In this document: in pieces, positions 15,504-21,594 of the stretch | Numbering within the stretch: the first letter of the stretch is position 1 | Layout of the letters: each line of letters begins with the position of its first letter | From: Tsukamurella paurometabola DSM 20162 | GTDB taxonomy: Bacteria; Actinomycetota; Actinomycetes; Mycobacteriales; Mycobacteriaceae | Reading direction: 5' to 3' | Length of the DNA: 64,000 bases | Assembly: GCF_000092225.1 (NCBI RefSeq) | Contig: NC_014158.1 | Span: 2,852,001-2,916,000 of the forward strand | The notes under the pieces: model-generated | The model's database searches: none | The model's input: only the letters and a program-made list of their open reading frames with translations | Told to the model about the DNA's origin: nothing | Made by a program: the position numbers and the translations under genes

Positions 15504-16679
15504 TCAGTCGAGGATGCGGCGTACCACGCCATCGGCGAGGAGTCGCCCGGCGTCGGTGAGCACGTAGGCCGCACCGACGCGGTCGAGGTTGCCCTCGGCG
15601 GCCTCGGCGTCGGCGCGTTCGCGCTCCGCAGGGCGGAGGACCGCGAGCGGCAGGCCCGACCGCATCCGCACCCGCAGCATCACGTCCTCGACGTGCTGTT
15701 GCTCCGCGGTGAGTGTCTCGTGCCCGGCCAGTGGCAGTTCGCCGCGGCCGACGGCATCGGCGTAGCGGGCGGGGTGCTTGATGTTCCACACGCGGGTCCC
15801 GGCGATGTGCCCGTGGGCGCCCGGGCCGGCTCCCCACCAGTTGGCGCCCTCCCAGTACAACTCGTTGTGGTGGCACCGTGCGGCGTCGCTGCGCGCCCAG
15901 TTCGACACCTCGTACCAGTCGAAGCCGGCGCCGCGCAGCGCGCCGTCCACCTGCTCGTAGCGCCGCGCCAAGACGTCGTCATCGGTGTCGGGCAATTCGC
16001 CGCGGCGGATCCGGCGGGCCAAGGCGGTTCCGTCCTCGACGATGAGCGCATACGCCGAGACGTGGTCCACGCCCGCATCGAGCACCGCATCCAACGAGGC
16101 CGCGAGATCGGCATCGGTTTCCCCGGGGGTGCCGTAGATCAGGTCGAGGTTCACGTGCTCGAAGCCCGCCGCGCGGGCCTCCTTCGCCGCCGCGACCGCG
16201 CGTCCCGGTGTGTGCGTCCGGTCGAGCACGGTGAGCACGTGAGCGGCCGCCGACTGCATGCCCAACGAGACGCGAGTGAACCCCGCATCGCGGAGCCGTC
16301 GGAAGAACTCGGGTGAGGTGGATTCCGGGTTCGATTCGGTGGTGATCTCGGCGTTGTCGACGAACCGGAAGTGGCGGCGGGCGGTGTCGAGCAGCGCGGC
16401 GAGGCCGTCTCCGCCGAGCAACGACGGTGTGCCGCCGCCCACGAACACCGTGTGCACCGGCACATCGCCGACGGTCGCACGCGCCAGCGCCAGTTCCCCG
16501 TCGATGGCTTCGGCCCACGCCTGCGGCGACGAGGATCCGCCCAACTCACCCGCGGTGTAGGTATTGAAATCGCAGTATCCGCAGCGGGTGGCGCAGAACG
16601 GAACGTGCAGATAGAGCCCGAACGGCGCAGAGCTGCCCTCCAGCGAGGGCAGAGTGGGGGCGGCGAGGGACTGCGTCAT
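15504..16679 (-). CDS. hemW: Radical SAM heme chaperone HemW
   Basis: HemN-like radical SAM protein that binds heme and delivers it to client enzymes. The 391 residues contain CATRCGYCDF, giving the CX3CX2C cluster ligands Cys29, Cys33 and Cys36, and the conserved LYLHVPFC lead-in, GGGTPSLL and TTESNPES motifs. True coproporphyrinogen oxidases have an additional cysteine after the motif (CX3CX2CXC); here the residue pattern CDF supports HemW. The ATG at 16679 directly abuts GAAGGG, so initiation may be unusual. Confidence 0.88.
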   Translation of the reverse strand: MTQSLAAPTLPSLEGSSAPFGLYLHVPFCATRCGYCDFNTYTAGELGGSSSPQAWAEAIDGELALARATVGDVPVHTVFVGGGTPSLLGGDGLAALLDTARRHFRFVDNAEITTESNPESTSPEFFRRLRDAGFTRVSLGMQSAAAHVLTVLDRTHTPGRAVAAAKEARAAGFEHVNLDLIYGTPGETDADLAASLDAVLDAGVDHVSAYALIVEDGTALARRIRRGELPDTDDDVLARRYEQVDGALRGAGFDWYEVSNWARSDAARCHHNELYWEGANWWGAGPGAHGHIAGTRVWNIKHPARYADAVGRGELPLAGHETLTAEQQHVEDVMLRVRMRSGLPLAVLRPAERERADAEAAEGNLDRVGAAYVLTDAGRLLADGVVRRILD

Positions 16680-16738
16680 CCCTTCAGTCTGGCAGTCGCG
16701 GCGGCCAGGGCCGAACCGGTCGGTGGCGCGAGCGCAGT

Positions 16739-16752
16739 GTGGTTCGAACCAC
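16739..16752. promoter_or_regulatory. Perfect 14-bp palindrome upstream of the sulfate assimilation operon
   Basis: GTGGTTCGAACCAC is its own reverse complement. It lies between hemW and the sulfur operon, about 30 bases upstream of the putative -10 box, a plausible operator position for either divergent promoter. No regulator can be named from the sequence. Confidence 0.4.
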
Positions 16753-16781
16753 CCCGATTCCAACTTTCGTCCAGCCGGTGG

Positions 16782-16795
16782 CACAATGATCCCGA
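16782..16795 (+). promoter_or_regulatory. Promoter -10 box for a leaderless transcript of the sulfur operon
   Basis: CACAAT (16782-16787) is followed by seven bases and then the A of the leader ATG at 16795. This spacing fits transcription starting at the start codon itself. The -35 region is weak (TCCAAC around 16759). Confidence 0.45.
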
Positions 16796-16875
16796 TGGAT
16801 GGACAGGGTGAGCTGCTGGCTTCGCGCCGGCACATTGACTACCTGCGGGTCTGCAGCAGCAGCTGTCAGGCCTGA
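16795..16875 (+). CDS. Cysteine-rich leader peptide (putative cysteine attenuator)
   Basis: A 26-residue peptide ending RHIDYLRVCSSSCQA, with Cys codons TGC (16852-16854) and TGT (16864-16866) just before the stop. It starts without room for a ribosome-binding site, 79 bases before the sulfite reductase start. Mycobacteria are known to use leaderless polycysteine leader ORFs of this kind (Ms4533A/Ms5788A-type peptides) as cysteine-responsive attenuators of sulfur genes. The shared RHIDxLR and terminal Cys pattern identify it. An in-frame ATG at 16786 would add three residues. The peptide itself probably has no function beyond ribosome stalling. Confidence 0.8.
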   Translation: MDGQGELLASRRHIDYLRVCSSSCQA

Positions 16876-16889
16876 TTGAAGGCGTTTCT

Positions 16890-16949
16890 GCGCGCCGCAC
16901 CGCTCTTGCGCCACAGCCCGGCGCGCCATCTTCGTTAATCCACAGGAGT
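16890..16949 (+). promoter_or_regulatory. Attenuator-like hairpin and Shine-Dalgarno-masking element
   Basis: GCGCGCCG (16890-16897) pairs perfectly with CGGCGCGC (16919-16926). Inside the loop GCTCTTG (16902-16908) can pair with CAGGAGT (16943-16949), the ribosome-binding site of the sulfite reductase gene, by seven pairs including two G-U. A ribosome stalled at the leader Cys codons would sit about 25 bases upstream and could alter folding. The structure is read by eye and not computed. Confidence 0.5.
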
Positions 16950-16953
16950 CTTC

Positions 16954-18675
16954 ATGACGTCGACTGCCGACGCTCCCCTTTCCTCCGCTGACGCCGCTCC
17001 CGCGCGGCCCGCTCGCAAGCGCCCGGCACAGCGGAAGTCCGAGGGCCAGTGGAAGCTGGGCTACCGCGAACCGCTGAACGCGAACGAGCAGACCAAGAAG
17101 GACGACAACCCGCTCAACGTGCGGGCCCGGATCGAGAACATCTACTCCAAGCAGGGGTTCGATTCGATCGACAAGTCGGACCTACGCGGCCGGATGCGCT
17201 GGTGGGGCCTGTACACCCAGCGCGAGCAGGGATACGACGGCACCTACACCGGCGACGAGAACATCGACCTGCTCGAAGCCCCGTATTTCATGATGCGGGT
17301 GCGCTGCGACGGCGGGAAGCTCAACGCCGAGCAGATGCGGGTGTTGGGCGAGATCTCGACGGAATTCGCCCGCGATACCGCCGATCTCTCCGACCGCGAG
17401 AACGTCCAGTACCACTGGATCGAGATCGAGAACGTACCCGAGATATGGAAGCGCCTGGAGGCCGTGGGCCTCAAGACCACCGAGGCCTGCGGCGATTGCC
17501 CGCGCGTGGTGCTCGGCTCGCCGCTGGCGGGCGAGTCCTTCGGCGAGGTCCTCGATCCGTCGCCGGCGATCGACGAGATCGTGCGCCGCTACATCGGCGA
17601 TCCGAAGTACTCGAACCTTCCCCGCAAGTTCAAGACCGCGATCTCGGGCCAGCAGGACGTGGTCCATGAGATCAACGACGTGGCCTTCGTCGGCGTGGTG
17701 CACCCCGAGCACGGCCCCGGCCTGGATCTGTGGGTCGGCGGTGGCCTGTCGACGAATCCGATGCTCGCGCAGCGGGTGGGCGCCTGGATCCCGCTCGACG
17801 AGGTGCCCGACGTCTGGGAGGGCGTGGTCTCGATCTTCCGCGACTATGGCTACCGCCGGCTGCGCTCGAAGGCGCGACTGAAGTTCCTGGTCAAGGACTG
17901 GGGGATCGAGAAGTTCCGCCAGGTCCTGGAGGACGAGTACCTCGGCCGCACGCTGATCGACGGCCCCGCTCCCGCACAGCCGGAGCGTCCCATCGACCAC
18001 ATCGGCGTGCAGAAGCTGCGCAACGGCCTCAACGCCGTCGGCTTCTCCCCCATCGCCGGCCGCGTCTCGGGCACGGTGCTGAGCAAGGTGGCCGATGCGA
18101 TGGAGCGGGTCGGCTCGGACCGGGCCTCGTTCACGCCGTATCAGAAGTTGATCGTGCTCGACGTCCCCGACGACCAGGTCGACTCTCTGATCGACGAGCT
18201 GGCGCCGGTGGGCCTGCAGGGGCGCCCGTCGATCTGGCGGCGCAACCTGATCGCGTGCAGCGGCATCGAGTTCTGCAAGCTTTCCTTCGTCGAGACCCGC
18301 AAGCGCTCGCAGGTGCTGGTGCCCGAACTGGAGCAGCGACTCGCCGACATCAACGCCCAGCTGGACGTCCCGATCACGGTGAACATCAACGGCTGCCCCA
18401 ACTCGTGCGGCCGGTCCCAGATCGCCGACATCGGCTTCAAGGGCCAGCTCGTGGACGACCACGAGGGGAATCAAGTCGAGGGCTTCCAGGTTCACCTTGG
18501 TGGAAGCCTCGGGCTCGACAGCGGGTTCGGCCGTAAGCTGCGCCAACACAAGGTGCTGTCGACGGAGCTCGGGGACTACATCGAGCGAGTGGTGCGGAAC
18601 TTCGTGGCACAGCGCGAGGGCGACGAACGCTTCGCGCAGTGGACGCTCCGGGCCGCCGAGGAGGATCTACGGTGA
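16954..18675 (+). CDS. sirA: Ferredoxin-dependent assimilatory sulfite reductase (NirA/SirA type)
   Basis: Reduces sulfite to sulfide with six electrons from ferredoxin, using siroheme and a [4Fe-4S] cluster. The 573 residues contain two nitrite/sulfite-reductase repeats; the cluster ligands are in CSGIEFC and CPNSCGR in the C-terminal half. TEACGDCPR and WGLYTQR hold the cysteine and tyrosine that are cross-linked near the active site of mycobacterial NirA, favouring sulfite over nitrite. It is first in the operon with cysH, cysD and cysN, behind the Cys leader. The stop overlaps the cysH start. Confidence 0.94.
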   Translation: MTSTADAPLSSADAAPARPARKRPAQRKSEGQWKLGYREPLNANEQTKKDDNPLNVRARIENIYSKQGFDSIDKSDLRGRMRWWGLYTQREQGYDGTYTGDENIDLLEAPYFMMRVRCDGGKLNAEQMRVLGEISTEFARDTADLSDRENVQYHWIEIENVPEIWKRLEAVGLKTTEACGDCPRVVLGSPLAGESFGEVLDPSPAIDEIVRRYIGDPKYSNLPRKFKTAISGQQDVVHEINDVAFVGVVHPEHGPGLDLWVGGGLSTNPMLAQRVGAWIPLDEVPDVWEGVVSIFRDYGYRRLRSKARLKFLVKDWGIEKFRQVLEDEYLGRTLIDGPAPAQPERPIDHIGVQKLRNGLNAVGFSPIAGRVSGTVLSKVADAMERVGSDRASFTPYQKLIVLDVPDDQVDSLIDELAPVGLQGRPSIWRRNLIACSGIEFCKLSFVETRKRSQVLVPELEQRLADINAQLDVPITVNINGCPNSCGRSQIADIGFKGQLVDDHEGNQVEGFQVHLGGSLGLDSGFGRKLRQHKVLSTELGDYIERVVRNFVAQREGDERFAQWTLRAAEEDLR

Positions 18676-19394
18676 CTGCCCCATCGAATTCCCTGACCGA
18701 CGCCACTGCTGACGAGCTGCGCGCCCTCGCGGAACGCGCCTCGAAGGAGCTGGAGGGCGCCGATGCACTCACCCTGCTGCGGTGGACACTGGATACCTTC
18801 GGCGAGGACTTCGTGGTCGCGTCGAACATGCAGGACGGGGTGCTCGTGCACCTCGCGAAGCAGGTCCAGGACCGGCCGAAGGTGCTGTTCCTGGACACGG
18901 GCTACCACTTCCCCGAGACCATCGGCATGCGTGATGCGGTCGAGGCGGTCTACGACGTCGAGTTGCTCAACGTGACACCGGAGCACAGCGTCGGCGAGCA
19001 GGACGCTCTGCTCGGCAAGGACCTGTTCGCGAGCGATCCGGCGCAGTGCTGCAACCTGCGCAAGGTGGTGCCGCTGCGGGAGACTCTCAAGGGCTACCGC
19101 GCCTGGGTCACCGGTATTCGCCGGGTGGAGTCGCCGACGCGCGCGAACGCGCCGTTCATCTCGTTCGACGAGGGCTTCGGCCTGCTCAAGGTGAATCCGA
19201 TCGTCGACTGGTCCGACGAGCAGATGCAGCAGTTCATCGACGCGAACGGTGTCCTGGTGAATCCGCTGGTCGACGAGGGCTATCCGTCGATCGGGTGCCA
19301 GCCCTGCACGAAGAAGCCGGCTCCCGGATCCGATCCTCGAAGCGGCCGCTGGGCCGGTTCGACCAAGACAGAATGCGGACTGCACGCCTCATGA
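18672..19394 (+). CDS. cysH: Adenylylsulfate (APS) reductase CysH
   Basis: Reduces adenylyl sulfate to sulfite with thioredoxin. The 240 residues have the PP-loop-like VASNMQDGVL motif, the tandem CC of QCCNLRKV and CXXC of GCQPCTKK that ligate a [4Fe-4S] cluster, and the C-terminal catalytic ECGLH. The cluster cysteines mark it as using APS, not PAPS. GTG at 18672 overlaps the sulfite reductase stop, and its stop overlaps the cysD start (ATGA). Confidence 0.95.
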   Translation: MTAPSNSLTDATADELRALAERASKELEGADALTLLRWTLDTFGEDFVVASNMQDGVLVHLAKQVQDRPKVLFLDTGYHFPETIGMRDAVEAVYDVELLNVTPEHSVGEQDALLGKDLFASDPAQCCNLRKVVPLRETLKGYRAWVTGIRRVESPTRANAPFISFDEGFGLLKVNPIVDWSDEQMQQFIDANGVLVNPLVDEGYPSIGCQPCTKKPAPGSDPRSGRWAGSTKTECGLHAS

Positions 19395-20317
19395 CCATTT
19401 CCGAGAATCCTCCGGCTACGAGCACCGAATTCAGCACCCTCGACGCGCTCGAGTCGGAGGCGATCCACATCTTCCGCGAGGTGGCCGGCGAGTTCGAGCG
19501 TCCGGTGATCCTGTTCTCCGGTGGCAAGGACTCGACCGTGCTGCTGCACCTCGCGGTCAAGGCCTTCTGGCCGGCGCCGCTGCCCTTCGCCCTGCTGCAC
19601 GTGGACACCGGTCACAATCTGCCGGAGGTGCTGGCCTTCCGCGACAAGATGGTCGAGAAGTACAACCTCCGCCTGCACGTGGCGTCGGTGGAGGACTACC
19701 TCGCCGATGGCCGGCTCGAAGAGCGCGCCGATGGCATCCGCAATCCGCTGCAGACGGTGCCGCTGCTGGATGCGATCACCGAGAACCGCTTCGATGCGGT
19801 GTTCGGCGGCGGCCGCCGTGACGAGGAGCGGGCCCGCGCCAAGGAGCGGATCTTCTCGCTGCGCAACGCTTTCGGCCAGTGGGATCCGAAGAAGCAGCGG
19901 CCCGAACTGTGGAACCTGTACAACGGGCGGCACGCACCGGGTGAGCACGTGCGGGTGTTCCCGATCAGCAACTTCACCGAGCTCGACATCTGGCGTTACA
20001 TCGCCCGCGAGGACATCGAGCTGGCCTCGATCTACTACGCGCACGAGCGCGAGGTGTTCGACCGTGACGGCATGCTCATGACCTCGGGCGTGTGGGGCGG
20101 CCCGCGCGACGGCGAGCAGGTGCGCACCCTGTCGGTGCGGTACCGCACCGTGGGCGACGGTTCCACCACCGGCGCGATCGAGTCGACCGCCTCGACGAAC
20201 GAGCAGATCATGGCCGAGGTCGCGGCATCGCGCCTCACCGAGCGCGGTGCCACCCGCGGCGACGACCGGGTCTCCGAGGCCGCGATGGAAGACCGTAAGA
20301 AAGAGGGCTACTTCTGA
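19391..20317 (+). CDS. cysD: Sulfate adenylyltransferase small subunit CysD
   Basis: ATP sulfurylase catalytic subunit; forms APS from sulfate and ATP with CysN. The 308 residues contain the PP-loop SGGKDSTVLLHLA, HVDTGHNLPEV, GGGRRDEERARAKER and the C-terminal RTVGDGSTTGAI region. It overlaps cysH by four bases and cysN by one, so the three are translationally coupled. Confidence 0.96.
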   Translation: MTISENPPATSTEFSTLDALESEAIHIFREVAGEFERPVILFSGGKDSTVLLHLAVKAFWPAPLPFALLHVDTGHNLPEVLAFRDKMVEKYNLRLHVASVEDYLADGRLEERADGIRNPLQTVPLLDAITENRFDAVFGGGRRDEERARAKERIFSLRNAFGQWDPKKQRPELWNLYNGRHAPGEHVRVFPISNFTELDIWRYIAREDIELASIYYAHEREVFDRDGMLMTSGVWGGPRDGEQVRTLSVRYRTVGDGSTTGAIESTASTNEQIMAEVAASRLTERGATRGDDRVSEAAMEDRKKEGYF

Positions 20318-21594
20318 TGAGCAGCGCCCCCGCGCTTCTGCGTCTCGCGACGGCCGGTTCGGTCGATGACGGTAAGTCGACCCTGGTCGGGCGATTGCTG
20401 TACGACACGAAGTCGGTACTCGCCGATCAGATCGACGCCGTGACTCGCGCGTCGGTCGATAAGGGCCTCGACACCCCCGACCTGTCGCTGTTGGTCGACG
20501 GTCTGCGCGCCGAGCGCGAACAGGGCATCACCATCGACGTGGCCTACCGGTACTTCGCCACACCCAATCGGTCGTTCATCCTCGCCGACACTCCGGGGCA
20601 CGTGCAGTACACCCGGAACACGGTGTCGGGCGCGTCCACCGCGCAAGTGGTGATCCTGCTGACCGATGCGCGCAAGGGTGTCATCGAGCAGACCCGCCGG
20701 CACGCCGCGGTGCTGTCTCTGCTGGGTGTGCCGCGCGTGGTCTTGGCGGTCAACAAGATCGATCTGGTCGACGATCCGGCTTCGGTGTTCCACGAGATCT
20801 CGGCCGAATTCCGGTCGCTGACAGCTTCATTGGGCTGGTCCGACGATTCGGTGCACGCCATCCCGGTCTCGGCGCTGCACGGCGACAACGTGGCATCGCG
20901 CTCGGAGACCACTCCGTACTACGACGGTCCGTCGCTCATCGAACACCTGGAGTCGATCCCCACGGATCCGGATATCACGCCGATCGGTTTCCGCTTCCCG
21001 GTGCAGTACGTGATCCGGCCCCGCACCCCCGAGTACCCCGACTACCGCGGGTATGCCGGGCAGGTGGCGGCCGGAACGGTCGATGTGGGCGACGAGGTGT
21101 TGGTACTGCCCGCGGGTACACGCAGCCGAGTCGAGCGGATCGACACTCCCGACGGCGAGCTCGCGTCCGCGCACACCGGCCGGTCGGTGACGGTGATCCT
21201 CGCCGATGACGTCGATGTCTCTCGCGGCGACGTGATCGTCTCCGCCGCAGACGCTCCCGAGCCCCGACAGCAGTTCGAGGCAACGGTGTGCTGGCTGGCC
21301 GAGAAGCCGCTGCGCATCGGCGCCCGACTTCTGCTCAAGCACGGAACGAAGACCACGCAGGCGATCATCGGCGGGGTCGATGCGGTCTTCGACGAGCAGA
21401 ACCTCAAGGTTGTTCCGGGAGAAGGACTGGAGCTCAACCAGATCGGTCGGATCGGCGTGCAGACGGCGGAGCCGATCGTGGCCGACGACTACGACAAGAA
21501 CCGCGAGATGGGCAGTTTCCTGCTGATCGATCCACAGAGTGGAAACACCCTCGCCGCCGGCCTTGTCGGTGACGCACTCGCGCATCTCGTCTGA
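20317..21594 (+). CDS. cysN: Sulfate adenylyltransferase large subunit CysN (GTPase), not fused to APS kinase
   Basis: GTPase subunit that drives ATP sulfurylase. The 425 residues have G1 GSVDDGKSTL, switch region EREQGITIDVAYR, G3 ADTPGH, G4 NKID and EF-Tu-like domains II and III. In M. tuberculosis the homologue is fused to an APS kinase (CysNC); here the protein ends after domain III. This fits a pathway where APS is reduced directly by CysH. It is the last gene of the operon. Confidence 0.95.
   Translation: MSSAPALLRLATAGSVDDGKSTLVGRLLYDTKSVLADQIDAVTRASVDKGLDTPDLSLLVDGLRAEREQGITIDVAYRYFATPNRSFILADTPGHVQYTRNTVSGASTAQVVILLTDARKGVIEQTRRHAAVLSLLGVPRVVLAVNKIDLVDDPASVFHEISAEFRSLTASLGWSDDSVHAIPVSALHGDNVASRSETTPYYDGPSLIEHLESIPTDPDITPIGFRFPVQYVIRPRTPEYPDYRGYAGQVAAGTVDVGDEVLVLPAGTRSRVERIDTPDGELASAHTGRSVTVILADDVDVSRGDVIVSAADAPEPRQQFEATVCWLAEKPLRIGARLLLKHGTKTTQAIIGGVDAVFDEQNLKVVPGEGLELNQIGRIGVQTAEPIVADDYDKNREMGSFLLIDPQSGNTLAAGLVGDALAHLV

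Follow-up and report, generated by a model that had tools for sequence, protein, structure and literature searches.

The 64,000-nt stretch of Tsukamurella paurometabola DSM 20162 DNA analysed here (the window, to which the positions below refer) carries a sulfate assimilation block in which sirA, encoding a sulfite reductase, is followed by cysH-, cysD- and cysN-type genes (Table 1). The name cysD for the third of these is suggested by gene order and protein family. Directly before sirA lies a short ORF, and further upstream, on the opposite strand, a radical-SAM gene (by Pfam) which we take to be of the HemW/HemN type. The sequence-only reading had described the short ORF as having 26 residues and a start seven bases after a CACAAT, and direct reading bears this out; its 79 bases to sirA hold when the distance is measured from 16875, where the stop codon ends, the gap itself being 78 bases. 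The peptide had also been called cysteine-rich, and cysteines do lie near its stop codon, but there are only two, at codons 20 and 24, separated from each other (CSSSC).

Table 1. Features of the leader-sirA region and the genes behind it (positions in the window)
Feature	Position	Strand	Remarks
-10-like hexamer CACAAT	16782..16787	+	Spacer 16788-16794 (7 nt) before the leader ATG at 16795
Leader ORF	16795..16875	+	26 sense codons, MDGQGELLASRRHIDYLRVCSSSCQA, to 16872; TGA at 16873-16875; read directly
Candidate anti-Shine-Dalgarno, codons 15-17, GACUACCUG (doubtful)	16837..16845	+	CAGGAGUC is its partner when 16795-16980 is folded
Cys codon 20, TGC	16852..16854	+	Read directly
Cys codon 24, TGT	16864..16866	+	Proposed sensor codon
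Hairpin, loop ACAGCCC	16907..16925	+	Arms 16907-16912 and 16920-16925
sirA Shine-Dalgarno AGGAG	16944..16948	+	Read directly
sirA, sulfite reductase, 573 aa	16954..18675	+	ATG at 16954; PF01077 and PF03460
cysH-type PAPS/APS reductase ORF, start codon uncertain	18639..19394	+	PF01507 on 18666-19391
cysD-type sulfate adenylyltransferase small subunit, start approximate	19406..20317	+	PF01507 on 19406-20314
cysN-type sulfate adenylyltransferase large subunit	20317..21594	+	PF00009 and PF22594

A further ATG in the same frame, at 16786, lies partly within the -10-like hexamer. Across 94 related loci the equivalent place reads ATG in 46, ATA in 32, AAT in nine and other triplets in the rest; since it is a start codon of this kind in only those 46, the start at 16795 is favoured. 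These 94 leader loci represent 87 unique regions, the remaining seven being duplicates, with some named loci sharing contigs with genus loci. A hexamer of the form [TC]ANNNT stands 6-8 nt before the start at all 94, as compared to 76 of 3310 other ATG or GTG codons of the same loci, a contrast to be read knowing that the start picker preferred starts preceded by such a hexamer. The spacing is 7 nt in 82 of the loci, and 86 of them have CACAAT itself. When 16600-17000 was scanned with a plain sigma-70 consensus, nothing promoter-like emerged and CACAAT was not picked up. A transcript starting at the ATG, as the hexamer spacing would have it, could not hold a ribosome-binding site ahead of the ORF, and the natural inference from this arrangement is that the leader would be translated leaderless, from a transcript beginning at its own start codon.

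The leader precedes sirA in all 16 Tsukamurella genomes, that of T. paurometabola DSM 20162 included, and it was present at 78 of the 80 named sirA loci retrieved; the other two (L064 and L121) begin at or near the sirA match, where the contig ends. Among 70 loci picked for their match to the leader, the sirA match starts 48-364 nt behind the leader in 63. Eleven of the 70 were left out for want of a sirA match or of a usable start, and after removal of further duplicates the set comprised 136 regions, 127 of them unique as leader ORFs; leaving out L158 and L170, which have no GGAG, gave 134 regions, 118 of which show CAGGAG before sirA. The sirA start in L095, L110 and L119 was set by an AGGAG rule. 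In L139 and L140 (501 onward), both of genus label g2, the leaders are of the Ms4527A type and the downstream match covers only the last part of sirA, and another gene may follow the leaders there.

At the peptide level, the C-terminus reads CSS[SG]C in 14 of the 16 Tsukamurella genomes, NSCSC in one and CSCCC in one. The cysteine-bearing C-terminus on which the sequence-only reading had built is not lost in these close relatives, all of which keep at least two Cys. In 60 windows drawn at random from 115 unique ones, the leader frame showed 0.185 nonsynonymous and 0.552 synonymous differences per site, while the two other frames of the same windows gave 0.285/0.237 and 0.303/0.216; within Tsukamurella, the leader frame had 0.040 nonsynonymous and 0.147 synonymous differences per site. 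These ratios indicate that the leader peptide is under purifying selection specific to its frame. The ORF is short and the frame around it stays open for 86 codons, as might be expected of a chance ORF in the 5' region, but the conservation and the frame-specific selection make such an origin hardly credible. A small protein functioning in trans would also have a conserved amino-acid sequence; against it stand the fixed place before sirA, N- and C-termini that vary among relatives and the absence of any Pfam match above cut-off for the leader ORF, and we regard this explanation as very unlikely.

In hmmscan, the leader matched NF042936 (leader_Ms4527A) with an E-value of 9.8e-7 and 28.3 bits, below the cut-off of 45, and NF042934 weakly, with 13.6 bits against a cut-off of 27. 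The Ms4527A model itself found a match (E up to 0.1) in 129 of the 151 genomes sampled from this GTDB family, and in 31 of these the match exceeds the cut-off. Of 14 control genomes one gave a match, and none passed the cut-off. The motif RRH[VI]D..RV[CN]S and the place before sirA mark the leader as a diverged relative of Ms4527A. In seven loci (L017, L060, L146, L150, L159, L172 and L173) Asn replaces the first Cys of this motif (RVNS) and the later, TGT-coded Cys is kept. Because the curated cut-off is not reached and the Cys codons, 20 and 24 (CSSSC), are not contiguous as in a polycysteine stretch, we file the leader neither under NF042936 nor with the 'polycysteine' leaders. We place it instead, by its layout, in the broad kind of leaderless Cys leader ORFs of actinobacterial sulfur operons, as it is short and conserved, immediately precedes a cys/sir operon and has its Cys codons close to the end. 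Taken together, the occurrence in 16 of 16 genomes of the genus and at 78 of 80 loci, and the signature of selection, sustain the claim of a conserved, coding, leaderless-type leader before sirA-cysH-cysD-cysN that is related to Ms4527A. An Rfam scan of 16500-17100 gave three matches, all far below their gathering scores.

Leaders of this kind have a history. Leader peptides of cys operons were predicted by comparative analysis in 2005 (PMC1262725), likewise as short ORFs with Cys codons near the stop before a cys operon; the accessible part of that paper names Mycobacterium, P. acnes and B. longum, and Tsukamurella is not among the organisms named there. A 2015 paper includes the leader before nirA/Msmeg_4527 in its list of conserved small ORFs on leaderless mRNAs; its accessible text states robust ribosome occupancy for the leader locus of Msmeg_5788 (cysA2-type) and has the Msmeg_4527 leader in the same figure (PMC4633059). 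The title of Canestrari 2020, as given in the reference lists of citing papers, speaks of a polycysteine-encoding leaderless sORF. The sequence-only reading had seen in the present ORF an extension of the cysteine-responsive attenuator to this genome. A member is indeed found here, but the news is modest, since the Ms4527A model already matches most of the family genomes sampled and the kind was both predicted and listed in the two papers above.

Several resemblances can be drawn. The Tsukamurella leader shares with the Ms4527A leader of the Mycobacterium nirA/sirA operon the position before sirA/nirA, the leaderless-type start, Cys near the stop and the core RRH[VI]D..R, whereas many Ms4527A relatives end in CSCCC and similar runs and the Tsukamurella peptide has two separated Cys. 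The Ms5788A leader before cysA2 (NF042933) is laid out in the same way, and its aligned Cys is likewise mostly encoded by TGT, but its peptide and its downstream gene are different. With the actinobacterial 'putative leader peptide' NF042934 the Tsukamurella leader has in common the core motif and, in the same position, a Cys that is mostly UGU-coded, although those leaders often have a single Cys. Further afield, uORFC-8-2, the Cys leader of cysS in Rhodobacterales, is likewise predicted to sense Cys through the ribosome, but according to the available text it has an intrinsic terminator and is dominated by UGC codons (PMC8632094).

Another Cys leader of the leaderless type, MRNHCELLLTRRLAVDLCRMAGCRCLG, stands elsewhere in the genome, outside the window, in front of a gene with a rhodanese domain (C1 3658658-3658741; L131 1483-1566); here TATTCT is followed by six bases and then the ATG. 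It matched Ms5788A with an E-value of 3.9e-7 and 29.6 bits, below the cut-off of 45, and NF042934 with 28.3 bits, above the cut-off of 27. These matches indicate that at least two sulfur loci of the T. paurometabola genome carry such leaders. Among ten genes standing behind other leaders and this second one (ten of the 14 ORFs listed), six have Pfam types that would suit sulfur metabolism, namely sulfite reductase, PALP, FMN reductase, luciferase-like monooxygenase, NMT1-type and rhodanese; for most of them we infer the sulfur link from the type. The remaining four were an SDF symporter and a 2OG oxygenase, which have no obvious sulfur fit, and two genes without a match.

The fixed place of the leader before sirA in relatives, the purifying selection on its peptide and the similar second leader argue for a leader that senses cysteine. 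We therefore consider it likely, with a probability of roughly 0.8 and by analogy with the mycobacterial systems, that a leaderless leader peptide couples the progress of the ribosome over its Cys codons to the expression of sirA and of the genes that follow. Transcription would start at the leader ATG, as the -10 spacing suggests, and ribosomes would load on the leader at once, as would be expected from leaderless mycobacterial mRNAs. When cysteinyl-tRNA is short, ribosomes would pause in the Cys region of the leader and the pause would hold the mRNA in a form favouring sirA; when cysteine is plentiful, the ribosome would finish at the TGA, the leader-sirA RNA would refold and less sirA would be made. 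The sensing step appears well supported by the sequence comparisons. As for the level of control, the translation of sirA is our first choice and Rho-dependent termination the second.

Codon usage points to where the sensing may take place. The Cys found nine residues after the conserved Asp is encoded by TGT in 122 of the 127 unique sirA-linked leaders and by TGC in two, with no Cys in three, as compared to 1.7% TGT among the 771 Cys codons of the sirA genes of the same loci. In T. paurometabola this position is Cys24 and not Cys20 of the RVC motif, and the codon-20 equivalent has 81 TGC and 34 TGT in the same 127 leaders. The same aligned Cys is TGT in 29 of 30 unique leaders of the Ms5788A set, 27 of 27 by script and, among three rows that the script pattern missed, two by eye, the third having TGC. 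A further 25 leaders of NF042934 all carry TGT there, while their other Cys codons are TGC (25 of 25). A class-wide sample of 84 unique leaders, three of which could not be read (L248, L266 and L269), gave 73 TGT and eight TGC among the 81 readable; this sample consisted of the best-scoring loci and 40 places chosen for the spread of family labels and is thus not a random draw, and up to 29 and 22 candidates per genome were scored in its first look. Seven of the eight TGC leaders (L288, L315, L316, L317, L318, L320 and L321) carry the same family label, f83; other f83 members use TGT at the aligned Cys, which provides a natural contrast for the role of the codon.

Codons ending in G or C make up 10% at the UGU position in the class-wide sample and 4% in the sirA set, as compared to 42-100% at the remaining positions displayed. 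A strict reading is weakened by the frequency of TGT at other Cys positions of the sirA set (126 of 272), and further codons are skewed in the sirA-linked leaders, with AGC for 118 of 126 Ser (18% expected) and CGA for 79 of 86 Arg (4% expected). Since such unusual codons are frequent in the leaders, the RNA itself may be under some of the constraint, and since the leaders are related to each other, the codon counts are not independent events. UGU is read by wobble by a single tRNA-Cys. The bias suggests that UGU at codon 24 would be the main sensing codon.

The conserved peptide could itself take part, the nascent RRHIDYLRV helping in the exit tunnel to arrest the ribosome at Cys24, a contribution that would add to the coupling proposed above and is compatible with it. 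The maintenance of [HA][VI]D..R at the amino-acid level across leaders that differ in their number of Cys, the frame-specific selection and the odd codon of the Cys24 equivalent even where this is the sole Cys are all consistent with such an active chain; the bias of Ser AGC and Arg CGA, in which the RNA may be what is constrained, tells against it, and we regard the active chain as possible but not probable. A wider proposal, equally tentative and in our judgement on balance doubtful, is that the sensor of actinobacterial Cys leaders would be one Cys codon nine residues past the Asp rather than a run of them, nearly always UGU in genomes where that codon is rare, read with [HA][VI]DxxR in the tunnel. 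The slower, wobble-read codon and the nascent chain would together make one residue enough, and a CAGCCC hairpin would belong to the output in the sirA branch. The literature text examined, which covered Canestrari 2020 through citing passages, contains no mention of the UGU position bias or of the CAGCCC hairpin, and we do not claim either as unreported.

The hairpin lies in the gap between leader and sirA. CAGCCC occurs in 115 of 133 such gaps against 18.4 expected from dinucleotide shuffles, and a flanking stem of at least five pairs is found at 65.5% of its 116 copies, many of them from related species (68 distinct forms), as compared to 9.3% at random places in the same gaps. The stems are unrelated in sequence, being TGCGCC/GGCGCG in T. 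paurometabola and GAGGA/TCCTC, GGGCGCGAG/CTCGCGCCC, CGGTCC/GGACCG and others elsewhere. About one third of the copies have short stems, so that the hairpin is not universal. In T. paurometabola, a rival helix of eight pairs between GCGCGCCG (16890-16897) and CGGCGCGC (16919-16926) excludes it and is preferred in the best folds of 16795-16980 and of 16873-16965; when 0, 9 or 20 nt of sirA are included, the CAGCCC hairpin forms instead. The fold of 16795-16980 was mildly better than its shuffles (z -1.63, 16 of 200 as good) and that of 16873-16965 no better (z 0.15). No partner for the CAGCCC loop was found in the leaders of 115 regions: five-base matches in three registers numbered 46, 13 and 0 of 115, as compared to 26, 23 and 23 for the reversed loop, and six-base matches 2 and 0, as compared to 2 and 9.

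Pairing that would mask the Shine-Dalgarno sequence of sirA was also considered. In T. paurometabola, folding 16795-16980 brings together GACUACCUG of codons 15-17 and CAGGAGUC; the pairing has a value of 0.98 in the set of 87 unique regions. This candidate was rejected, as the pairing is lost with other 3' ends and is not general, a predicted pairing above 0.5 between the leader and the sirA Shine-Dalgarno being confined to 27 of the 87. The cost of opening the site in T. paurometabola was 0.13, 4.18, 0.87 and 7.07 kcal/mol with 0, 9, 20 and 30 nt of sirA; predicted masking thus varies with the length of sirA folded, and clear masking is not established. When a ribosome was modelled on the leader in 118 regions outside Tsukamurella, the opening cost fell by more than 1 kcal/mol in 38 with the ribosome at the later Cys and in ten with it at the stop codon. 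Placing it at the first Cys lowered the cost in 22 and raised it in 15. In the 16 Tsukamurella regions, the first Cys lowered the cost by more than 1 kcal/mol in two and raised it in one, and the later Cys lowered it in none. The 38 as compared to ten speak for the proposed coupling, but the model of opening by a stalled ribosome brought no gain in Tsukamurella beyond two of 16 and mixed results outside the genus.

Two further candidates were not retained. In the window beginning at the conserved His, leaders paired with their own Shine-Dalgarno at a mean of -6.03 kcal/mol versus -5.31 with that of other species (134 regions), but other windows differed less and with either sign, a preference too weak to claim. 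A covariation scan of 122 unique 69-nt leader windows (effective number 28.5) found no helix, and for this reason the leader helices given by RNAalifold in two subgroups of 14 and 52 sequences are not claimed.

These results bear on an alternative with the same sensing and a transcriptional output, in which transcription would be terminated within the 78 nt between leader and sirA, by Rho or by an RNA hairpin, unless a paused ribosome prevents it. In its favour, no conserved pairing over the ribosome-binding site of sirA was demonstrated that would mask it, a hairpin common to many relatives sits in the gap, and Rho has been suggested for mycobacterial cys leaders, although the same source, in its accessible part, calls its own Rho motifs not conserved (PMC1262725). 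Against it, no terminator-like site was found in 16600-17000 and no U run follows the CAGCCC hairpin, unlike in a classical attenuator with an intrinsic terminator; and papers citing Canestrari 2020 report, in the passages available, translational control in M. smegmatis (PMC9031893, PMC13236596). We consider a transcriptional output rather unlikely. Our preferred reading remains the coupling of ribosome progress over the leader Cys codons to sirA expression, acting first of all on translation. For M. smegmatis, the mechanism reported by Canestrari 2020 is that stalled ribosomes prevent the ribosome-binding site of the following gene from closing.

The T. paurometabola leader is very probably a member, in another genus, of the known kind of cysteine-responsive leaders, and it suggests that the sulfate assimilation block of this organism could be set by the supply of cysteine at the ribosome. 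If a change from UGU to UGC alters induction, a synonymous codon would be a regulatory part in a large bacterial class, and if one UGU codon does the sensing, leaders with a single Cys would become understandable.
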